The notes beneath the pieces were generated by a model, which had not been told where the DNA came from, made no database searches, and saw only the letters and a program-made list of their open reading frames with translations. Position numbers and translations under genes: made by a program. This document shows positions 3,060-32,097 of a stretch of DNA of 64,000 nt, in pieces (position 1 is the stretch's first letter; every line of letters begins with the position of its first letter). Location of the stretch: positions 1-64,000 of the forward strand of contig NZ_CP130322.1 of the NCBI RefSeq assembly GCF_033025475.1, in the 5' to 3' direction. The DNA comes from Sphingomonas sp. C3-2. Lineage in GTDB: Bacteria; Pseudomonadota; Alphaproteobacteria; Sphingomonadales; Sphingomonadaceae.

Positions 3060-6000
3060 ATGTCTCACGCCGCTTATGTACCCCTTCGTATCTTTTCGTC
3101 CTTCACCATGCTCGATGGCGCAATCGAGCCGAAGAAGATCGCCTCGCGCGCCCGCGACCTTGGCTTTCCTGCCGCCGCGATCACCGATCGCAACGGCATG
3201 TACGGCGTCATGGCCTTTTCGGACGGGTGCAAGGGCTCGGGCGTGCAACCCGTTATCGGCACCATGCTGTGCGTGGCGCGTCCCTCGGTCGACGGCGCGG
3301 AACGCTGCTTCGATTGGCTCGCGCTCTATGCGCAGGACGAAGCGGGCTATGACAATCTCTGCGCGCTGGTATCGGCGGCGCATCTCGATCGCCCGGTCGA
3401 GGAACAGGCGCATGTCGAACTCTCGGCGTTGCAGGGGCGTACCGACGGTCTGATCGCGCTCACTGCGGGCGGCGAAGGCGCGCTCGCGAAGCTGCTCGCC
3501 GAAGGGCAGGCCAATCACGCCGCCGCCTATCTCGACAAGCTTCAGGCGCTGTTTCCCGATCGGCTCTATATCGAGATCGCGCGCCGGAACGAGGATGTGG
3601 AAACGCAGGCCGAGCCGCATCTCATCGAACTCGCCTATGCGCGCAATCTGCCGCTCGTCGGCACCAATCCGTGCTGCTTTTCCGAGCCCGATTTCCACGC
3701 CGCACACGATGCGATGCTCTGCATCGCGAGTTCATCGTATGTAGAAAGCGACGATCGCAAGAAAAGCTCGCCCGATGCCTGGCTGAAGCCGGTCGAGGAA
3801 ATGCAGCGGCTTTTCGAGGATCTGCCCGAAGCGCTCGCCAACACGCTCGTCGTCGCGCAGCGCTGTGCTTTCATGGCGCCCAAGCGACCGCCCATTCTGC
3901 CCAGCCTTGCGGGCGACCGCGAGGGGGAAGCGAAGAAGCTGCGCGAGGATTCCTTTACCGGGCTCGAAAACCGGTTGGAAGTGGCTGGCATCACCGACCC
4001 GGCCGAGCGCCAGCCCTATTTCGATCGCCTCGAATTCGAGCTGGGCATCATCATCCAGATGGGCTTTCCCGGCTACTTCCTGATCGTTGCCGACTTCATC
4101 AAATGGGCCAAGGATCACGATATTCCCGTGGGGCCGGGCCGTGGTTCGGGCGCGGGTTCGCTCGTCGCCTGGGTGCTGACGATCACCGATCTCGATCCGC
4201 TGAAACTCGGGCTGCTCTTCGAACGCTTCCTCAACCCGGAACGCGTCTCGATGCCCGACTTCGATATCGACTTCTGCGAAACCCGGCGTGAAGAGGTGAT
4301 CCGCTACGTCCAGCAGAAATATGGCCGCGACCATGTGGCGCAGATCATCACCTTTGGGCGCCTCAAGGCCCGCGCCGTGCTCAAGGACACCGGCCGTGTT
4401 CTGCAGATGAGCTATGGTCAGGTCGATCGCCTCGCCAAGCTCGTGCCGAACCATCCGACCGATCCGTGGACGCTGGAACGGACGATGGAAAAGGGCGGGG
4501 TGGCCGAGTTCCGCCACGAGTACGAAACCGACAAGGAGGTCCGTCGGCTCGTCGATCTCGCAATGAAGCTGGAAGGCCTGCCGCGCCACAGCTCCACCCA
4601 CGCCGCCGGTGTGGTGATCGGCGATCGTCCGCTCGATCAACTGGTGCCGCTCTACCGCGATCCGCGCTCGGATATGCCGGTCACCCAGTTCGACATGAAA
4701 TTCGTCGAGGGCGCGGGCCTCGTCAAATTCGACTTTCTGGGCCTGAAGACGCTTTCGGTTCTGCAAAAGGCGGTGCAGCTCCTCGCCAAGCGCGGGGTGA
4801 CGATCGATCTTAGCAGCCTCGCCTGGGATGACGTCGATACCTATGCCCTGCTTCAGCGCGGCGATACGGTGGGCGTGTTCCAGCTCGAATCCGAAGGCAT
4901 GCGCCGCACGCTTGCGGCCGTTCGCCCCACCAATTTCGGCGACATCATCGCGCTCGTCTCGCTCTACCGTCCGGGTCCGATGGATAACATCCCAACCTTC
5001 GGCGCGCGTAAGAATGGTCGGGAAGAGATCGAATATCCGCACATGTTGCTGGAGCCGATCCTGAACGAAACTTACGGGATTTTCGTCTATCAGGAACAGG
5101 TGATGCAGGCCGCGCAGATCCTCGCGGGCTATTCGCTCGGCGAAGCAGATCTTCTGCGCCGCGCAATGGGTAAGAAGATCAAGGCGGAAATGGATGCCCA
5201 GCGCGCCCGCTTCGTCGAAGGTTGCGCCGAAAAGGATATCGCTGCCGCCAAGGCGAACGAATTGTTCGACTTGATCGACAAGTTCGCGGGCTACGGCTTC
5301 AACAAGTCGCACGCCGCCGCCTATGCGCTGCTCGCCTATCAGACGGCGTGGCTGAAGGCGCATCACGCGCCCGAATTCTTCGCGGCGTCGATGTGCTACG
5401 ATATGGCGCTGACCGACAAGCTCAGCATTTTCGTCGATGATATGCGCCGCCTTGAAATCCCGTGCCTGCCGCCGTGCATCAACGCCAGCGAAGCCGAGTT
5501 CACGGTCGAGCAGGGCGAAGACGGCCTGTCGGTGCGCTATGCGCTCGCCGCGCTCAAGGGCGTGGGCGAAAAAGCGATGGACGGCGTCGTCGACGAACGG
5601 CTCAAGGCCGGGCCTTTCCAGTCGCTCGACGATTTTGCCGACCGGATCGATCCCAAGCTGATCAACCGTCGCCAGATGGAAAGCCTGGCCGCGGGCGGCG
5701 CGTTCGACGCGCTCGAACCCAACCGCGCGGGCGTTCATGCGGTGGCGGAGACGATCCTGGCGGTCGCCGCCAGTGCGGAGCAGAGCCGGACCAGCGGGCA
5801 GGGCGGTCTTTTCGGCGATTTCGAAGCCAAGACCACGACGATCAAGGTGCCGCAGGATGCGCACTGGTCGCTTGCCGAGCGTATGGCCGAGGAAAAGGAC
5901 GCTTACGGCTTCTACTTCTCGGCGCATCCGATCGATCGCTTCCGCCACATCGCCGACGGGCACGGCGCCCGCAGCTATGCCGCGCTCTGCGCGCAGCCCG

Positions 6001-6545
6001 GCGGGGCAGAGGCCAGCCGCACCATGGCGACGATGGCGGGCCTTGTCGAAGACGCGCGCTGGCGCACCTCCGCGCGGGGGCGCCGCTATATGATGGCCAC
6101 CTGCTCCGATGCGTCCGGCCAGTATATCGCCACCTGTTTCGAGGAAGATCTCGGCAAGGAGCTTGAGGAAATCGCGCGCGAAGGCGGCTGCGTGCTCTTC
6201 ACGGTCGAGCTTGATCGCCGCCCGGGCGAAGATGCCCCGCGCGTCACGATCAAGCGCATCCAGCGTTTCGAGCAACTGGCTGGCGCCACGCGCCTGACAT
6301 TGGAAGTCGGCGTTTCCAGCGAAGCCGCGATCCGCACGCTCGCGCAACTGCTTGCCTCTGCGCAAGGGGGACGGGGCGAACTGGTCATCGATGTCGCGCT
6401 GCCCGATGGCGCGTCGGCGCGGCTCAGCGCGGGGCGGGATTTCTCGCTCGATGCCGAGCTTTCCGCGCGCATCGAAACGGTCACCGGCGTCACCTCGGTT
6501 TCGCTCCGCACCACCGACACGCCCCGGCTTGCACTCGTTTCCTGA
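3060..6545 (+). CDS. dnaE: DNA polymerase III alpha subunit
   Basis: Catalytic polymerase subunit of the replicative holoenzyme. The 1161-residue length is normal for DnaE1. The polymerase active site SMPDFDIDF places the metal-binding aspartates at residues 400 and 402, matching E. coli D401/D403, and QFDMKFVEG supplies the third acidic region. The order is an N-terminal PHP domain (about 5-270), the polymerase core (about 280-800), helix-hairpin-helix motifs and a C-terminal OB fold. The PHP domain starts LRIFSSFTMLDG, so the metal-binding His of the usual HSxYSLLDG motif is absent; this PHP domain is probably structural only, with proofreading by a separate DnaQ. The ATG at 3060 gives the usual MSHAAYVPLR start. 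Confidence 0.97.
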   Translation: MSHAAYVPLRIFSSFTMLDGAIEPKKIASRARDLGFPAAAITDRNGMYGVMAFSDGCKGSGVQPVIGTMLCVARPSVDGAERCFDWLALYAQDEAGYDNLCALVSAAHLDRPVEEQAHVELSALQGRTDGLIALTAGGEGALAKLLAEGQANHAAAYLDKLQALFPDRLYIEIARRNEDVETQAEPHLIELAYARNLPLVGTNPCCFSEPDFHAAHDAMLCIASSSYVESDDRKKSSPDAWLKPVEEMQRLFEDLPEALANTLVVAQRCAFMAPKRPPILPSLAGDREGEAKKLREDSFTGLENRLEVAGITDPAERQPYFDRLEFELGIIIQMGFPGYFLIVADFIKWAKDHDIPVGPGRGSGAGSLVAWVLTITDLDPLKLGLLFERFLNPERVSMPDFDIDFCETRREEVIRYVQQKYGRDHVAQIITFGRLKARAVLKDTGRVLQMSYGQVDRLAKLVPNHPTDPWTLERTMEKGGVAEFRHEYETDKEVRRLVDLAMKLEGLPRHSSTHAAGVVIGDRPLDQLVPLYRDPRSDMPVTQFDMKFVEGAGLVKFDFLGLKTLSVLQKAVQLLAKRGVTIDLSSLAWDDVDTYALLQRGDTVGVFQLESEGMRRTLAAVRPTNFGDIIALVSLYRPGPMDNIPTFGARKNGREEIEYPHMLLEPILNETYGIFVYQEQVMQAAQILAGYSLGEADLLRRAMGKKIKAEMDAQRARFVEGCAEKDIAAAKANELFDLIDKFAGYGFNKSHAAAYALLAYQTAWLKAHHAPEFFAASMCYDMALTDKLSIFVDDMRRLEIPCLPPCINASEAEFTVEQGEDGLSVRYALAALKGVGEKAMDGVVDERLKAGPFQSLDDFADRIDPKLINRRQMESLAAGGAFDALEPNRAGVHAVAETILAVAASAEQSRTSGQGGLFGDFEAKTTTIKVPQDAHWSLAERMAEEKDAYGFYFSAHPIDRFRHIADGHGARSYAALCAQPGGAEASRTMATMAGLVEDARWRTSARGRRYMMATCSDASGQYIATCFEEDLGKELEEIAREGGCVLFTVELDRRPGEDAPRVTIKRIQRFEQLAGATRLTLEVGVSSEAAIRTLAQLLASAQGGRGELVIDVALPDGASARLSAGRDFSLDAELSARIETVTGVTSVSLRTTDTPRLALVS

Positions 6546-6582
6546 TTGTCTAACATTCCTGTAAATAAAACAGGAGAGTTGG

Positions 6583-8187
6583 ATGCTTGGCGGGATGCAG
6601 GATTTCGAGCTGCGCGTGCCTCGTTTGCTCGACTATGCGGCGCGCGAACATGGTGGCCGGGAAATTGTCAGCTACTGGGCGGACGGAACCACCACGCGCA
6701 CGAACTGGGCGGGCATTGCCCGCGATGCGCGCAAGCTTGCGCAGGCGCTTGAACGACTGGGGTTGAAAAAGGGCGACCGTGTCGGCACGCTGGCGATGAA
6801 CCATGGCCGCCATCTGGCCGCATGGTACGGCGTGATCGGCATGGGCGGCGTGATCCACACGATCAACCCGCGCCTGTTCGACGAACAACTCGTCTATATC
6901 GCCAATCATGCCGAAGACCGCGTCCTGCTATACGACCGGGCGTTTCAGCCGATTGTCGATCGTCTGCGCGATCAATGGACGACCATCGAGCATTATGTCT
7001 GCTTCGATTCCCCGGGGCTCGACGGGTTCGAGGCGCTGATCTCGCCCTTCTCGGGGGACTATGCCTGGGATGAGGGATCGGAACGCGAACCCTGCATGCT
7101 CTGCTATACCAGCGGCACCACGGGCAATCCAAAGGGTGTGCTCTACGAACATCGGTCCACGGTGATCCACGCCGTGTCTGAAATTTCGCCCTCCTGCTTC
7201 AACCTTGAACCGCGTTCGGTCGCCTTGCCGATCGTGCCAATGTTCCACGCAGCGGGCTGGGGGCTTCCCTTTGCGGGCGCGATTGCTGGCGCCAAATTCG
7301 TCTTTTCGGCGATCAACGATGCCGCCGTGCTGTGCCGCCTCATGAACGAGGAAAAGGTCACCCATTCGGCGGGCGTACCAACCGTGTGGCTCGCCATGTT
7401 CAGCCATATCGACCAGACCGGGCTCAAGCCCGAATATCTGCAACTCGTCACCATCGGCGGGTCGGCGGCACCCCGTGCAATGATCGAGCGGTTGATGGGG
7501 ATGGGCATTCGTGTCGGCCACGCCTGGGGGATGACCGAAACCTCCCCCATCGGCACCATGGGCGCGCCCACCTGGAACTGGGATGAGCTCAGCTTCGATG
7601 AACAGGTGGATCAGGTGTCGAAACAGGGCCGGGTTCCCTTCGGCGTCGAACTGCGCGTGGTGGACGGCGACGGCAATGTGCTGCCGCGCGACGGCACCTC
7701 ATCGGGCCGTCTGCAGGTGCGCGGCCCCTGGGTGCTCCGGCGCTATTTCCAGGATGAAGCCGGCGATTGCATCGATGCGGAGAACTGGTTCGATACGGGC
7801 GACGTGGCGGTCCTCCACCCATGCGGCACGATGCAGATCACCGACCGGTCAAAGGACGTCATCAAGTCGGGCGGCGAATGGATCAGTTCGGTCGAACTGG
7901 AAAACGCTGCGGTCGGCCACCCCGACATTGCCGAAGCCGCGGCGATCGGCGTCCATCACCCCAAATGGGACGAACGCCCGCTGCTCCTCGTCGTCCGCAA
8001 GGCCGGGGCAGACCCTTCGGCGGCCGATATCCATGCCTTCCTGTCAGACAAGGTGGCCAAATGGTGGCTTCCTGACGAGATTCTGTTCGTCGATAGCCTG
8101 CCGCACACCGCAACGGGCAAACTGCTGAAAACCGCACTCCGGGCGCAATATGCCGATCATGTCCTGCCCACCGCCAAGGCGGCGTGA
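6583..8187 (+). CDS. Long-chain/medium-chain acyl-CoA synthetase (AMP-binding enzyme)
   Basis: ATP-dependent fatty acid-CoA ligase of the ANL superfamily. The 534-residue protein has the P-loop [11 protein letters not shown] beginning at Tyr175, the acyl-adenylate motif [11 protein letters not shown], the hinge-region aspartate in [10 protein letters not shown], and the C-terminal catalytic lysine in the [11 protein letters not shown] segment. The closest family pattern is the FadD3/AlkK type of medium- and long-chain ligases; the exact substrate cannot be read from sequence. An AGGAG site lies 8 bases before the ATG. It stands alone, 37 bases after dnaE. Confidence 0.93.
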
Positions 8188-8196
8188 CGGGACGGA

Positions 8197-9267
8197 TCAG
8201 AACAGGTTGAACTGGTCTCCGGCGGGGGCCTTGAAAAGATCGCAGCGGAGCGGCCTCATCGGTTCCCGGTTGAGGCCGTTCTTGCGACAGGCGATCCTGA
8301 AGCGCGCGCGGATCAGTTCCGCCCATGGGCCGCTACCGCGCATCCGCCCGTAAAAATTTGGATCATTGTCACGCCCCCCGCGCAGCGAACGGACGATCGC
8401 CATCACCTTGTCCGCGCGGTCGGGATAATGCGCGTCGAGCCAGGCGCCAAACAGCGGCGCCACCTCGTGCGGCAGCCGCAGCGGGATGAACGATGCGTGG
8501 GATGCGCCGGCTTCGGCTCCCGCTTCGATCAGCGCCTCGATCTCATGGTCGGTGATCGCGGGTATCACCGGTGAAATCGACATGACGACGGGAATGCCCG
8601 CCTCGCTCAGCGCCTTCACCGCCGCAAGCCGGCGGCGCGGCGCGGGCGCGCGCGGCTCCAGCGTCATCGCGATATGCGGATCGAGCGAGGTGATCGAAAC
8701 CATCACCGAAACAAGCCCCTTTGCCGCCATCGGCGCCAGCAGGTCGATATCACGCACGATCCGGTCGGATTTGGTGGTGATCAGCAAGGGGTGCTGCGTT
8801 TCAGCCAATATAGCCACGCAATCGCGCATGATGTGCCAGTCGCGTTCGATCGGCTGATACGGGTCGGTATTGGTCCCCATCGCGATCGGCGCGACGGTAT
8901 AGCTGGGCTTCGACAATTCCTTGCGCAGCAGCGCGGCTGCACCGGGCTTGGCAAAGAGCCGCGTCTCGAAATCGATGCCGGGCGACAGGTCGTGATAGGC
9001 ATGGCTCGGCCGCGCAAAGCAGTAGATGCAGCCATGCTCACAACCCGAAAAAGGGTTAATAGACAGGGTAAACGGAATGTCTGGAGAGTTGTTTCGCGTG
9101 ATGATTGTGCGCGGGTGAAGGACGGTTACGGTCGTCCTCAATCGCGGGATTTCACCATCGACCAACTCTCTTTCGTCGACCCAATCTCCATCAACCTCTT
9201 GATGTAGAGTGTTAAATCTGGTGCAGGCCCGATTGTTTGTTGCGCCTCGTCCACGTTCCTTACGCAT
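8197..9267 (-). CDS. PA0069-family radical SAM protein (restored, chimeric gene)
   Basis: Radical SAM enzyme of the PA0069/Rv2578c type (SplB-related); the reaction is unknown. The cluster-binding motif is C76-E-H-G-C80-I-Y-C83, followed by FARPSHAYHDLSPG, characteristic of the family. The gene is a mosaic: codons up to about C76-E-H are AT-richer, differ from the host copy, and come from the inserted element, whereas everything after is GC-rich host sequence. I chose the ATG at 9267 (MRKERGRGATNN) because family N-termini begin with a short basic stretch before GRGA. The open frame extends to 9348, but those extra residues do not look like the family. With this start the protein is 356 residues, about normal. 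The stop lies 9 bases from the acyl-CoA synthetase stop. Confidence 0.85.
   Translation of the reverse strand: MRKERGRGATNNRACTRFNTLHQEVDGDWVDERELVDGEIPRLRTTVTVLHPRTIITRNNSPDIPFTLSINPFSGCEHGCIYCFARPSHAYHDLSPGIDFETRLFAKPGAAALLRKELSKPSYTVAPIAMGTNTDPYQPIERDWHIMRDCVAILAETQHPLLITTKSDRIVRDIDLLAPMAAKGLVSVMVSITSLDPHIAMTLEPRAPAPRRRLAAVKALSEAGIPVVMSISPVIPAITDHEIEALIEAGAEAGASHASFIPLRLPHEVAPLFGAWLDAHYPDRADKVMAIVRSLRGGRDNDPNFYGRMRGSGPWAELIRARFRIACRKNGLNREPMRPLRCDLFKAPAGDQFNLF
9034..9039 (-). repeat. Direct repeat copy 1 at element/host junction
   Basis: GAGCAT on the minus strand, encoding Glu-His of the restored CEHGC motif. Downstream sequence (GGCTGC...) is GC-rich host gene; upstream is the AT-richer element. 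Because this stretch is also conserved coding sequence, the exact crossover could lie a few bases either way. Confidence 0.65.
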
Positions 9268-9330
9268 TGCGTCACTAGAACATAAAGTGAACGAAATCGC
9301 AAGCCGTTCGATGGGCGCTCTTCGATTCCG

Positions 9331-9349
9331 AGCAATAGATACAGCCATG
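9331..9349 (-). repeat. 19-nt internal copy of the insertion target
   Basis: Minus-strand CATGGCTGTATCTATTGCT matches the host target at 9018-9036 (CATGGCTGCATCTACTGCT) at 17 of 19 positions. The two differences are both C to T and fall at the third positions of the target's Cys and Tyr codons. The sequence on either side is not radical SAM-like, so this is not simply a gene fragment. It lies inside the element between the hairpin region and the replacement gene start. It may be a guide or recognition segment, or a relic attachment site. Confidence 0.6.
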
Positions 9350-9380
9350 GACAGCGATGAAAAAATCAGCGGCTGGTTTG

Positions 9381-9469
9381 TGAGTGCAATGGGCTTCGCA
9401 TCCCATATAGAATCACACTCAGGTTTCTTTACCTATCTGCGGCTGCACGCCGCCAGTTCGCTCTGAACT
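9381..9469 (-). ncRNA. Candidate structured RNA of the inserted element
   Basis: Four small inverted repeats lie end to end between the cargo stop codon and the 19-nt target-like segment. They are AGTTC/GAACT (9455-9469), GCGGC/GCCGC (9439-9453), AGGT/ACCT (9421-9434), and TGAGTG/CACTCA (9381-9386 with 9416-9421) enclosing ATGGG/CCCAT (9389-9406). No plausible ORF covers them. Read on the minus strand, a scaffold of hairpins is followed about 30 bases later by the target-like segment. Each stem is only 4-6 bp, so the case rests on their clustering. No promoter or terminator was established; the 30-base linker has a run of T (minus strand). Confidence 0.4.
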
Positions 9470-9508
9470 CCACACTCATATGTCAGGATATTTATCTATC
9501 GATGCCAT

Positions 9509-10075
9509 TCATTTGTTTGCGTGAAACCAATCTATGAACCGTTTGCTCAGGTCAGTTACATCTTCGCGTAGTTGGATTGCTGCCTTGTAAGCCGTGGTAC
9601 GCTCAAGGCTGAACTGACCACGTTGATAGACGACCTTTGTGAAGTGCCTAAAAGGATCGAGGTCGCCTTCTCGTGTAGCTGGTCCACGACCAACGCCAGC
9701 AGCATAATCATCAAAGTGTTCAATCATATCGCGCAATGCCTTGAGGCCATTGTGACCGTTTATTTGAAAAGTGTTATCAAACTTGGCCACGGCATGATCA
9801 GTAGCACTTTCTACTGGGCTAAGTTTCCTCAGCGTTCTAACGGTGGTGCGATACAGCCAGAGACGGATGATGAAGTTTTCCCAGTGATACTCCACCTCAA
9901 ATCCGCGAGCCATTTCGTCTGCTGTGTCTGCGATCTGATCCAGCTCGCGCCATGAAAGAACGAGCATGTTCCATGCGTGGGTATGGCGTGGTTTGTAATA
10001 GTCCCAAATGACGCCTTGCTCTTGAACGGAACGCATTCGCAAATCCTCGACCGTGATCTCAAACCACATTTTCAC
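9509..10075 (-). CDS. Element cargo: 188-aa helical protein with HEPN-like R-x4-H motif
   Basis: I do not recognise this protein as a named family. It looks all-helical, with aromatic-rich N-terminal helices (WDYYKPRHTHAWNML; WENFIIRLWLYRTTVRTL) and the motif L-R115-D-M-I-E-H120-F-D-D-Y in the C-terminal half. R-x4-6-H is the catalytic signature of HEPN RNases, often found in toxin and phage-defence proteins, so a HEPN-like RNase is a reasonable guess but not shown. Codon use is AT-richer than all neighbours, consistent with transfer. The start is GTG at 10075 or ATG at 10069; neither has a good ribosome-binding site. The stop of the truncated radical SAM fragment is only 3 bases upstream, so translation is probably coupled to it. 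Confidence 0.7.
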   Translation of the reverse strand: MKMWFEITVEDLRMRSVQEQGVIWDYYKPRHTHAWNMLVLSWRELDQIADTADEMARGFEVEYHWENFIIRLWLYRTTVRTLRKLSPVESATDHAVAKFDNTFQINGHNGLKALRDMIEHFDDYAAGVGRGPATREGDLDPFRHFTKVVYQRGQFSLERTTAYKAAIQLREDVTDLSKRFIDWFHANK

Positions 10076-10078
10076 TTG

Positions 10079-10411
10079 CTAGAAACGGCTTGCAATCCCA
10101 GATTTTCGGCGCCTTTGCGGGTTTACACATCTGTTACTGGGATGCTCGCACCCGCGATAGGGATTGATCGAACGGTCGAAGAAAATATCGGGTGAGTAGT
10201 TGCGTGTGATGATCGTGCGTGGATGCTCGATGGTCACTGTCGTCCGCGCTGGGGGCGTCTCGCCGTCGATCTGCGCCTGCTCATCGCGCCAGTCGCCGTC
10301 CAGCTCGCGTCCGGGAAGGTTGAAGCGGTCGCTCAGCCGGTTGAGCGTAGCGCCGCGGGCAGGGCGACGTCGGGCATCCATCCGAAGATGGTGCCCGACA
10401 TTGTGGAACAT
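10079..10411 (-). pseudogene. Truncated host 5' half of the radical SAM gene
   Basis: The original N-terminal part of the PA0069-family gene, GC-rich like its neighbours. It aligns residue by residue with the restored copy (GRELDGDWRDEQAQIDGE here against QEVDGDWVDERELVDGE there; TRNYSPDI against TRNNSPDI; SINPYRGCEH against SINPFSGCEH). After Cys-Glu-His (bases 10142-10150) it runs into element sequence and adds about 23 foreign residues before TAG at 10079-10081. It lacks the second and third cluster cysteines and cannot be active. It starts 28 bases after the lytic transglycosylase stop, in the same operon, so it should still be transcribed and carry transcription into the cargo gene. The likelier start is ATG 10381. 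Confidence 0.85.
10142..10147 (-). repeat. Direct repeat copy 2 at host/element junction
   Basis: GAGCAT on the minus strand, the last six bases of the host 5' fragment that still match a radical SAM gene (Cys-Glu-His). Immediately after it the reading frame turns into unrelated, AT-richer sequence (CCCAGTAACAG...). Confidence 0.65.
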
Positions 10412-31867: not shown

Positions 31868-31873
31868 CCGCTC

Positions 31874-31968
31874 CGGGAGTCGGGCGGACGTAACAGTCGC
31901 CAACCCGGTCAGGTCCGGAAGGAAGCAGCCGTAACGATATCGTTGCGGGTCGTTCCGGCTCCCACCTT
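31874..31968 (+). ncRNA. ffs: Signal recognition particle RNA, small (4.5S) bacterial type
   Basis: RNA component of the signal recognition particle; with Ffh it targets nascent membrane proteins. The conserved apical region GGTCAGGTCCGGAAGGAAGC at about 31908-31927 is diagnostic: it holds the GGAA tetraloop and the asymmetric internal loop bound by Ffh. The ends pair as GGGAGTCGG with CCGGCTCCC, closing a rod of about 90 bases. The gene lies between the ferredoxin gene and dnaX, the same place as in many alphaproteobacteria (ffs upstream of dnaX-ybaB). Ends are approximate by a few bases. Confidence 0.95.
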
Positions 31969-32097
31969 CCACATGTGAGCAGGCCGGCGGGGCGATCATG
32001 CGCGCCGCGCCCGATCGGGTTGATCGGGCACAGGAAAAGCGGGCGCGACGAAACAGCAATGGTTCCCCGTCATGGGAAACCGCTCTAGGGTGCGAGC

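Follow-up and report, generated by a model that had tools for sequence, protein, structure and literature searches.

The window analyzed here, a 64,000-nt (64-kb) stretch of Sphingomonas sp. C3-2 (contig NZ_CP130322.1, positions 1 to 64,000), contains a radical-SAM gene of the PA0069 family that is interrupted, and at the same time put back into frame, by an inserted mini-element of ~1108 bp (9038..10145). All features of this locus lie on the minus strand. The gene's original 5′ part (10146..10411) was located by tblastn and breaks off after the residues ..NPYRGCE, and joining it in silico to the host 3′ part (9037-8197) gives an intact frame of 377 codons; the same gene is uninterrupted in four genomes of the genus. 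The element brings a 5′ end of its own (9267-9038), just 60-65% identical to the old one, with a frame that is open into the host 3′ part. The restored gene (8197..9267) matches NCBIfam model NF033668.1 at 455 bits against a cut-off of 360 (E-value 1.5e-136), which places it in the PA0069 family. Most probably, in our view, the element is integrative but non-autonomous and depends for its movement on a large serine recombinase acting in trans, and one subtype of such elements would carry a structured segment that is dispensable for targeting.

The ends of the element were placed by comparing it with the 13 further insertions found at this site, and the insertion into a gene that a first-pass annotation of the window had proposed is borne out. 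At the left end lies the motif GCATCCCAGTAACAGATGTGTAAAC (10121..10145), a putative recombinase attachment half-site common to 12 other insertions and to the viral contig L082, and the right junction (attR, 9018..9042) spans the codons GCEHGCIYC. Between the ends, the cargo open reading frame (ORF; 9509..10075) encodes a helical protein of 188 aa to which searches of Pfam, PADLOC and NCBIfam gave no match. It has five convincing relatives, all in other alphaproteobacteria; two are near tyrosine integrases and none is located in a radical-SAM gene. A predicted structure (predicted local distance difference test score, pLDDT, 81) gave no match in a fold comparison with the PDB. Upstream of the replacement 5′ end is a GTTC-N7-GTTC box of the alphaproteobacterial LexA type (9278..9292), which recurs 243-254 bp ahead of the junction in 11 of the 14 insertions and likewise stands upstream of the uninterrupted gene in the four same-genus genomes (L056-L059). 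Since the box is conserved upstream, the PA0069-type radical-SAM gene may itself belong to the SOS (DNA-damage) regulon, as these sequences suggest.

Insertions were sought among sphingomonads through the doubled 5′ end of the radical-SAM gene. The 13 further insertions at the same codon come from three other sphingomonad genera (G165, G213, G351, G397, G475, G601, G618, G622, G633, G721, G737, G742 and G746), so that with the window copy (G000) there are 14 in four genera. Left out of this count were G613, G669 and G676 (second copy not located, an assembly gap, or two contigs) and G687, where the insertion at this site is larger and decayed. The cargo varies from one insertion to the next (DUF4145, DUF2199, a serine recombinase, or ORFs without assignment). 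The replacement 5′ end is present in all 14, that of G618 on another contig, and the left end, roughly GA(G/C/A)CAnCCCCGYAACRGTTGTGTAA, is common to 13. The replacement 5′ ends of the window copy and G622 are 89% identical and the host 3′ parts 59%; for G351 and G742 the values are 89% and 66%. These identities show that the replacement 5′ ends travel horizontally. They were not found in phages or viral contigs, and plasmid matches resemble ordinary host genes. At the level of sequence, then, site, boundaries, family, horizontal spread and restored reading frame can be taken as established. Two insertions at the site stand apart: the left end of G737 (L067, ~870) is of another kind and may go back to another recombinase, and G687 (L070, ~4800-8400) contains sequence resembling a transposase as well as stretches rich in homopolymers that may be misassembled.

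Two lines of evidence point to a serine recombinase. First, comparison of the insertions gives a single attB, constant attL and attR, a short common core and unlike arms; a common core, here TGYGA, with unlike arms is what serine-integrase attachment sites look like. Secondly, the G618 copy encodes, directly inside the left-end motif, a large serine recombinase with a Resolvase domain (PF00239), and on viral contig L082 a recombinase 58% identical to it is immediately preceded by two copies of the motif, TGCGACCACGCATACACGGTTGTGTA and a partial one. Targeting is explained by a serine recombinase that comes with a matching attachment motif. In the mechanism we propose, attB would be the codons GCE|HGCIYC of the PA0069-type gene, with the chromosomal core TGYGA followed by GCATGGCTGCATCTACTGC, and attP would be the end of the element's own 5′ gene copy, with the same core followed by roughly SCAnCCCCGYAACRGTTGTGTAA. 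Recombination of attP with attB would insert the cargo together with a spare 5′ gene end, and the gene of the host would keep a functional reading frame, now preceded by the element's LexA-type box. Catalysis by the serine recombinase and function of the restored gene would follow from this arrangement, and the target would most likely be picked by a serine integrase and not by an RNA.

Several observations weigh against this reading. A serine recombinase occurs at the site in one genome only (G618), where its frame is cut short close to the end of a contig and the corresponding right end of the element sits on another contig. The serine-recombinase gene expected of a serine-integrase element is thus present, incomplete, in G618 and absent from the window copy; no such gene was found in the window's own genome, for which reason we regard the window copy as non-autonomous. 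Among 235 further genomes of the family the recombinase search returned only distant proteins (about 30%). Mobility and a circular intermediate we infer from sequence comparison, and a target-like segment inside the element, described next, is not a clean attR because its left neighbor, GTC, differs from the core; a half-site origin would have to be supposed for it.

This segment, the 19-mer CATGGCTGTATCTATTGCT (9331..9349), was the subject of the first-pass annotation, which had described four hairpins followed by a 19-nt near-copy of the target and, from that order, a scaffold-then-guide RNA. The observations themselves held up. The hairpins, placed at 9381-9469, are present (~9468-9381), and the 19-mer agrees at 17 of 19 positions with the intact site CATGGCTGCATCTACTGCT (codons H G C I Y C, 9036-9018), both mismatches being C-to-T changes at third codon positions. 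Elsewhere in the window no match to it exceeds 15/19. Of 2000 shuffled inserts, only 2 reached 17 when compared with every 19-mer up to ~50 nt from the insertion point, and the best of 60 scored no more than 14 when the comparison was limited to the exact site. A match this good is therefore unlikely to be chance, with a probability of about 1e-3 once the choice of places to look is taken into account.

The 19-mer is largely paired within a conserved folded domain (9335..9499) that consists of a 7-bp closing helix (9499-9493 with 9341-9335), a multi-hairpin domain (9478-9381) and a 5-bp second helix (9375-9371 with 9346-9342); the 3′ strands of two of these helices are made up of 12 of its 19 bases. 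Only one relative, G622, has the structured region and the target-like segment, with ~90% identity in the folded part and unrelated cargo. When the stems were checked for covariation, as the first-pass annotation had advised, all 91 pair cells were kept between these two copies and seven pairs had consistent changes (two on both sides, five on one side), in a comparison of two sequences from which the structure was itself derived; slid structures, used as a control, pair at 29-46%. Hairpin stability is unremarkable (z -1.25 in the window copy, -2.27 in G622). Covariance models of Rfam 15 gave no match to the segment, and searches for the fold found no further copy in the window's own genome, in G622's genus (the 195 other genomes), in plasmids or in viral contigs; 248 genomes of the order gave just two weak 72-nt matches, judged to be chance. 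On our best reading the segment is a conserved structured RNA or DNA confined to one element subtype.

Within the serine-recombinase reading, the likeliest origin of the 19-mer, at present held in the fold, is a recombinase half-site (B′) that was kept or copied; its match begins immediately after the core and, at 19 nt, has about the length of one serine-integrase half-site. A related possibility, to which we give appreciable credit while holding it the less probable, is that the 19-mer is the decayed right half of an old attB or attR from an earlier host and that the fold is neutral or linked to cargo. This reading concerns the 19-mer only and is compatible with the serine-recombinase explanation. 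The sequence GAGCATGGCTGTATCTATTGC is a natural target allele in genome G380, the length is about that of a half-site, and the flanks of the two copies have eroded differently; however, the spacer ahead of the 19-mer is less well conserved than the 19-mer itself, in which one change is compensated by the fold. An unlikely alternative is a DNA signal acting in cis (a transfer origin, a packaging site or a recombinase accessory site) that lets the subtype be carried by a helper. The conserved inverted repeats do go with the right end of the element and not with the cargo, but searches of plasmids and viral contigs found no matching signal, and changes that retain pairing through G-U favor RNA.

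The scaffold-then-guide claim, under which the element's folded RNA would serve as a scaffold while base pairing between the 19-mer and the target DNA directs a recombinase provided in trans, we consider very improbable. The segment matches its own target at 17/19 in the window copy and 16/19 in G622, the fold is conserved despite the unrelated cargo, and two of the three G622 differences could still pair as G-U. The third, however, is a true mismatch (ATG for ATC): this non-silent C-to-G change is matched by a G-to-U change of its partner in the fold, where the segment is paired. In 11 other insertions at the same codon no target-like segment is present, their best matches (10-13/19) being no better than those of shuffled sequence, and thus the 19-mer is not required for targeting; the first-pass annotation had itself named this outcome as one that would refute its claim. 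Tracking of the target across hosts amounts to one base (CAC versus CAT), and the window segment fits both hosts' targets equally at 17/19; a target-binding segment in every copy that tracks the target, as in bridge RNAs, was not found. The earlier statement that no known effector is encoded was upheld by family searches of the element's ORFs, which gave no match to an RNA-guided nuclease, Cas protein or DEDD recombinase, and the fold turned up nowhere else in about 440 model-searched genomes. An RNA guide is therefore neither needed for targeting nor supported. Slimmer still is the prospect of an RNA-assisted large serine recombinase, in which one subtype's RNA, with a 3′ strand that copies the attachment half-site, would help the enzyme find or choose its target.

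Staphylococcal cassette chromosome (SCC) elements, including pseudo-SCC without ccr, are associated with large serine recombinases, occupy a single site in a conserved gene, differ in their cargo and include recombinase-free copies. They are the nearest serine-recombinase case (PMC10581047, PMC6222049). The elements described here share these four features; unlike SCC, which lies at its gene's 3′ end, they are ~1 kb, usually with one cargo gene, alphaproteobacterial, and sit inside the gene, where they replace its 5′ end and promoter region. The SXT element reportedly gives prfC a new 5′ end (Hochhut and Waldor, 1999). For an element-supplied 5′ end of the target gene, the SXT/R391 integrative and conjugative elements in prfC are the nearest case (PMC2791158). 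SXT/R391 are large conjugative elements with a tyrosine integrase, whereas the window element has neither integrase nor transfer genes. Temperate phages with large serine integrases, of the phiC31/TP901-1 type, likewise recombine attP with attB, with unlike arms and a short common core, and L082 has its motif beside a recombinase; in contrast, the element here is non-autonomous, has a single cargo and repairs the gene. With IS110 bridge RNA and TnpB omegaRNA it shares a structured sequence beside a target-like segment, but no such enzyme is in the element and most relatives lack the segment. Searches of a literature library found no report of elements at the PA0069-type radical-SAM gene.

Two further features were recorded. 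The window has an ordinary gene for the bacterial small signal recognition particle RNA (31872-31969, plus strand). At L004, the last 21 codons of an ORF (3952-4014) are repeated at 67% beyond two small ORFs (4756-4818), possibly another gene-repairing small insertion.

In conclusion, these insertions are best read as integrase-mobilized, gene-repairing mini-elements with a fold-bearing subtype among them. Elements this small, most of them with a single cargo, mend the gene that they enter and supply an SOS-type box along with the repair; genes can be spread economically in this way at a single safe site. The family offers a defined attachment site in sphingomonads, probably that of a serine recombinase, together with uncharacterized cargo genes and a conserved folded segment with a target likeness that is directly testable.
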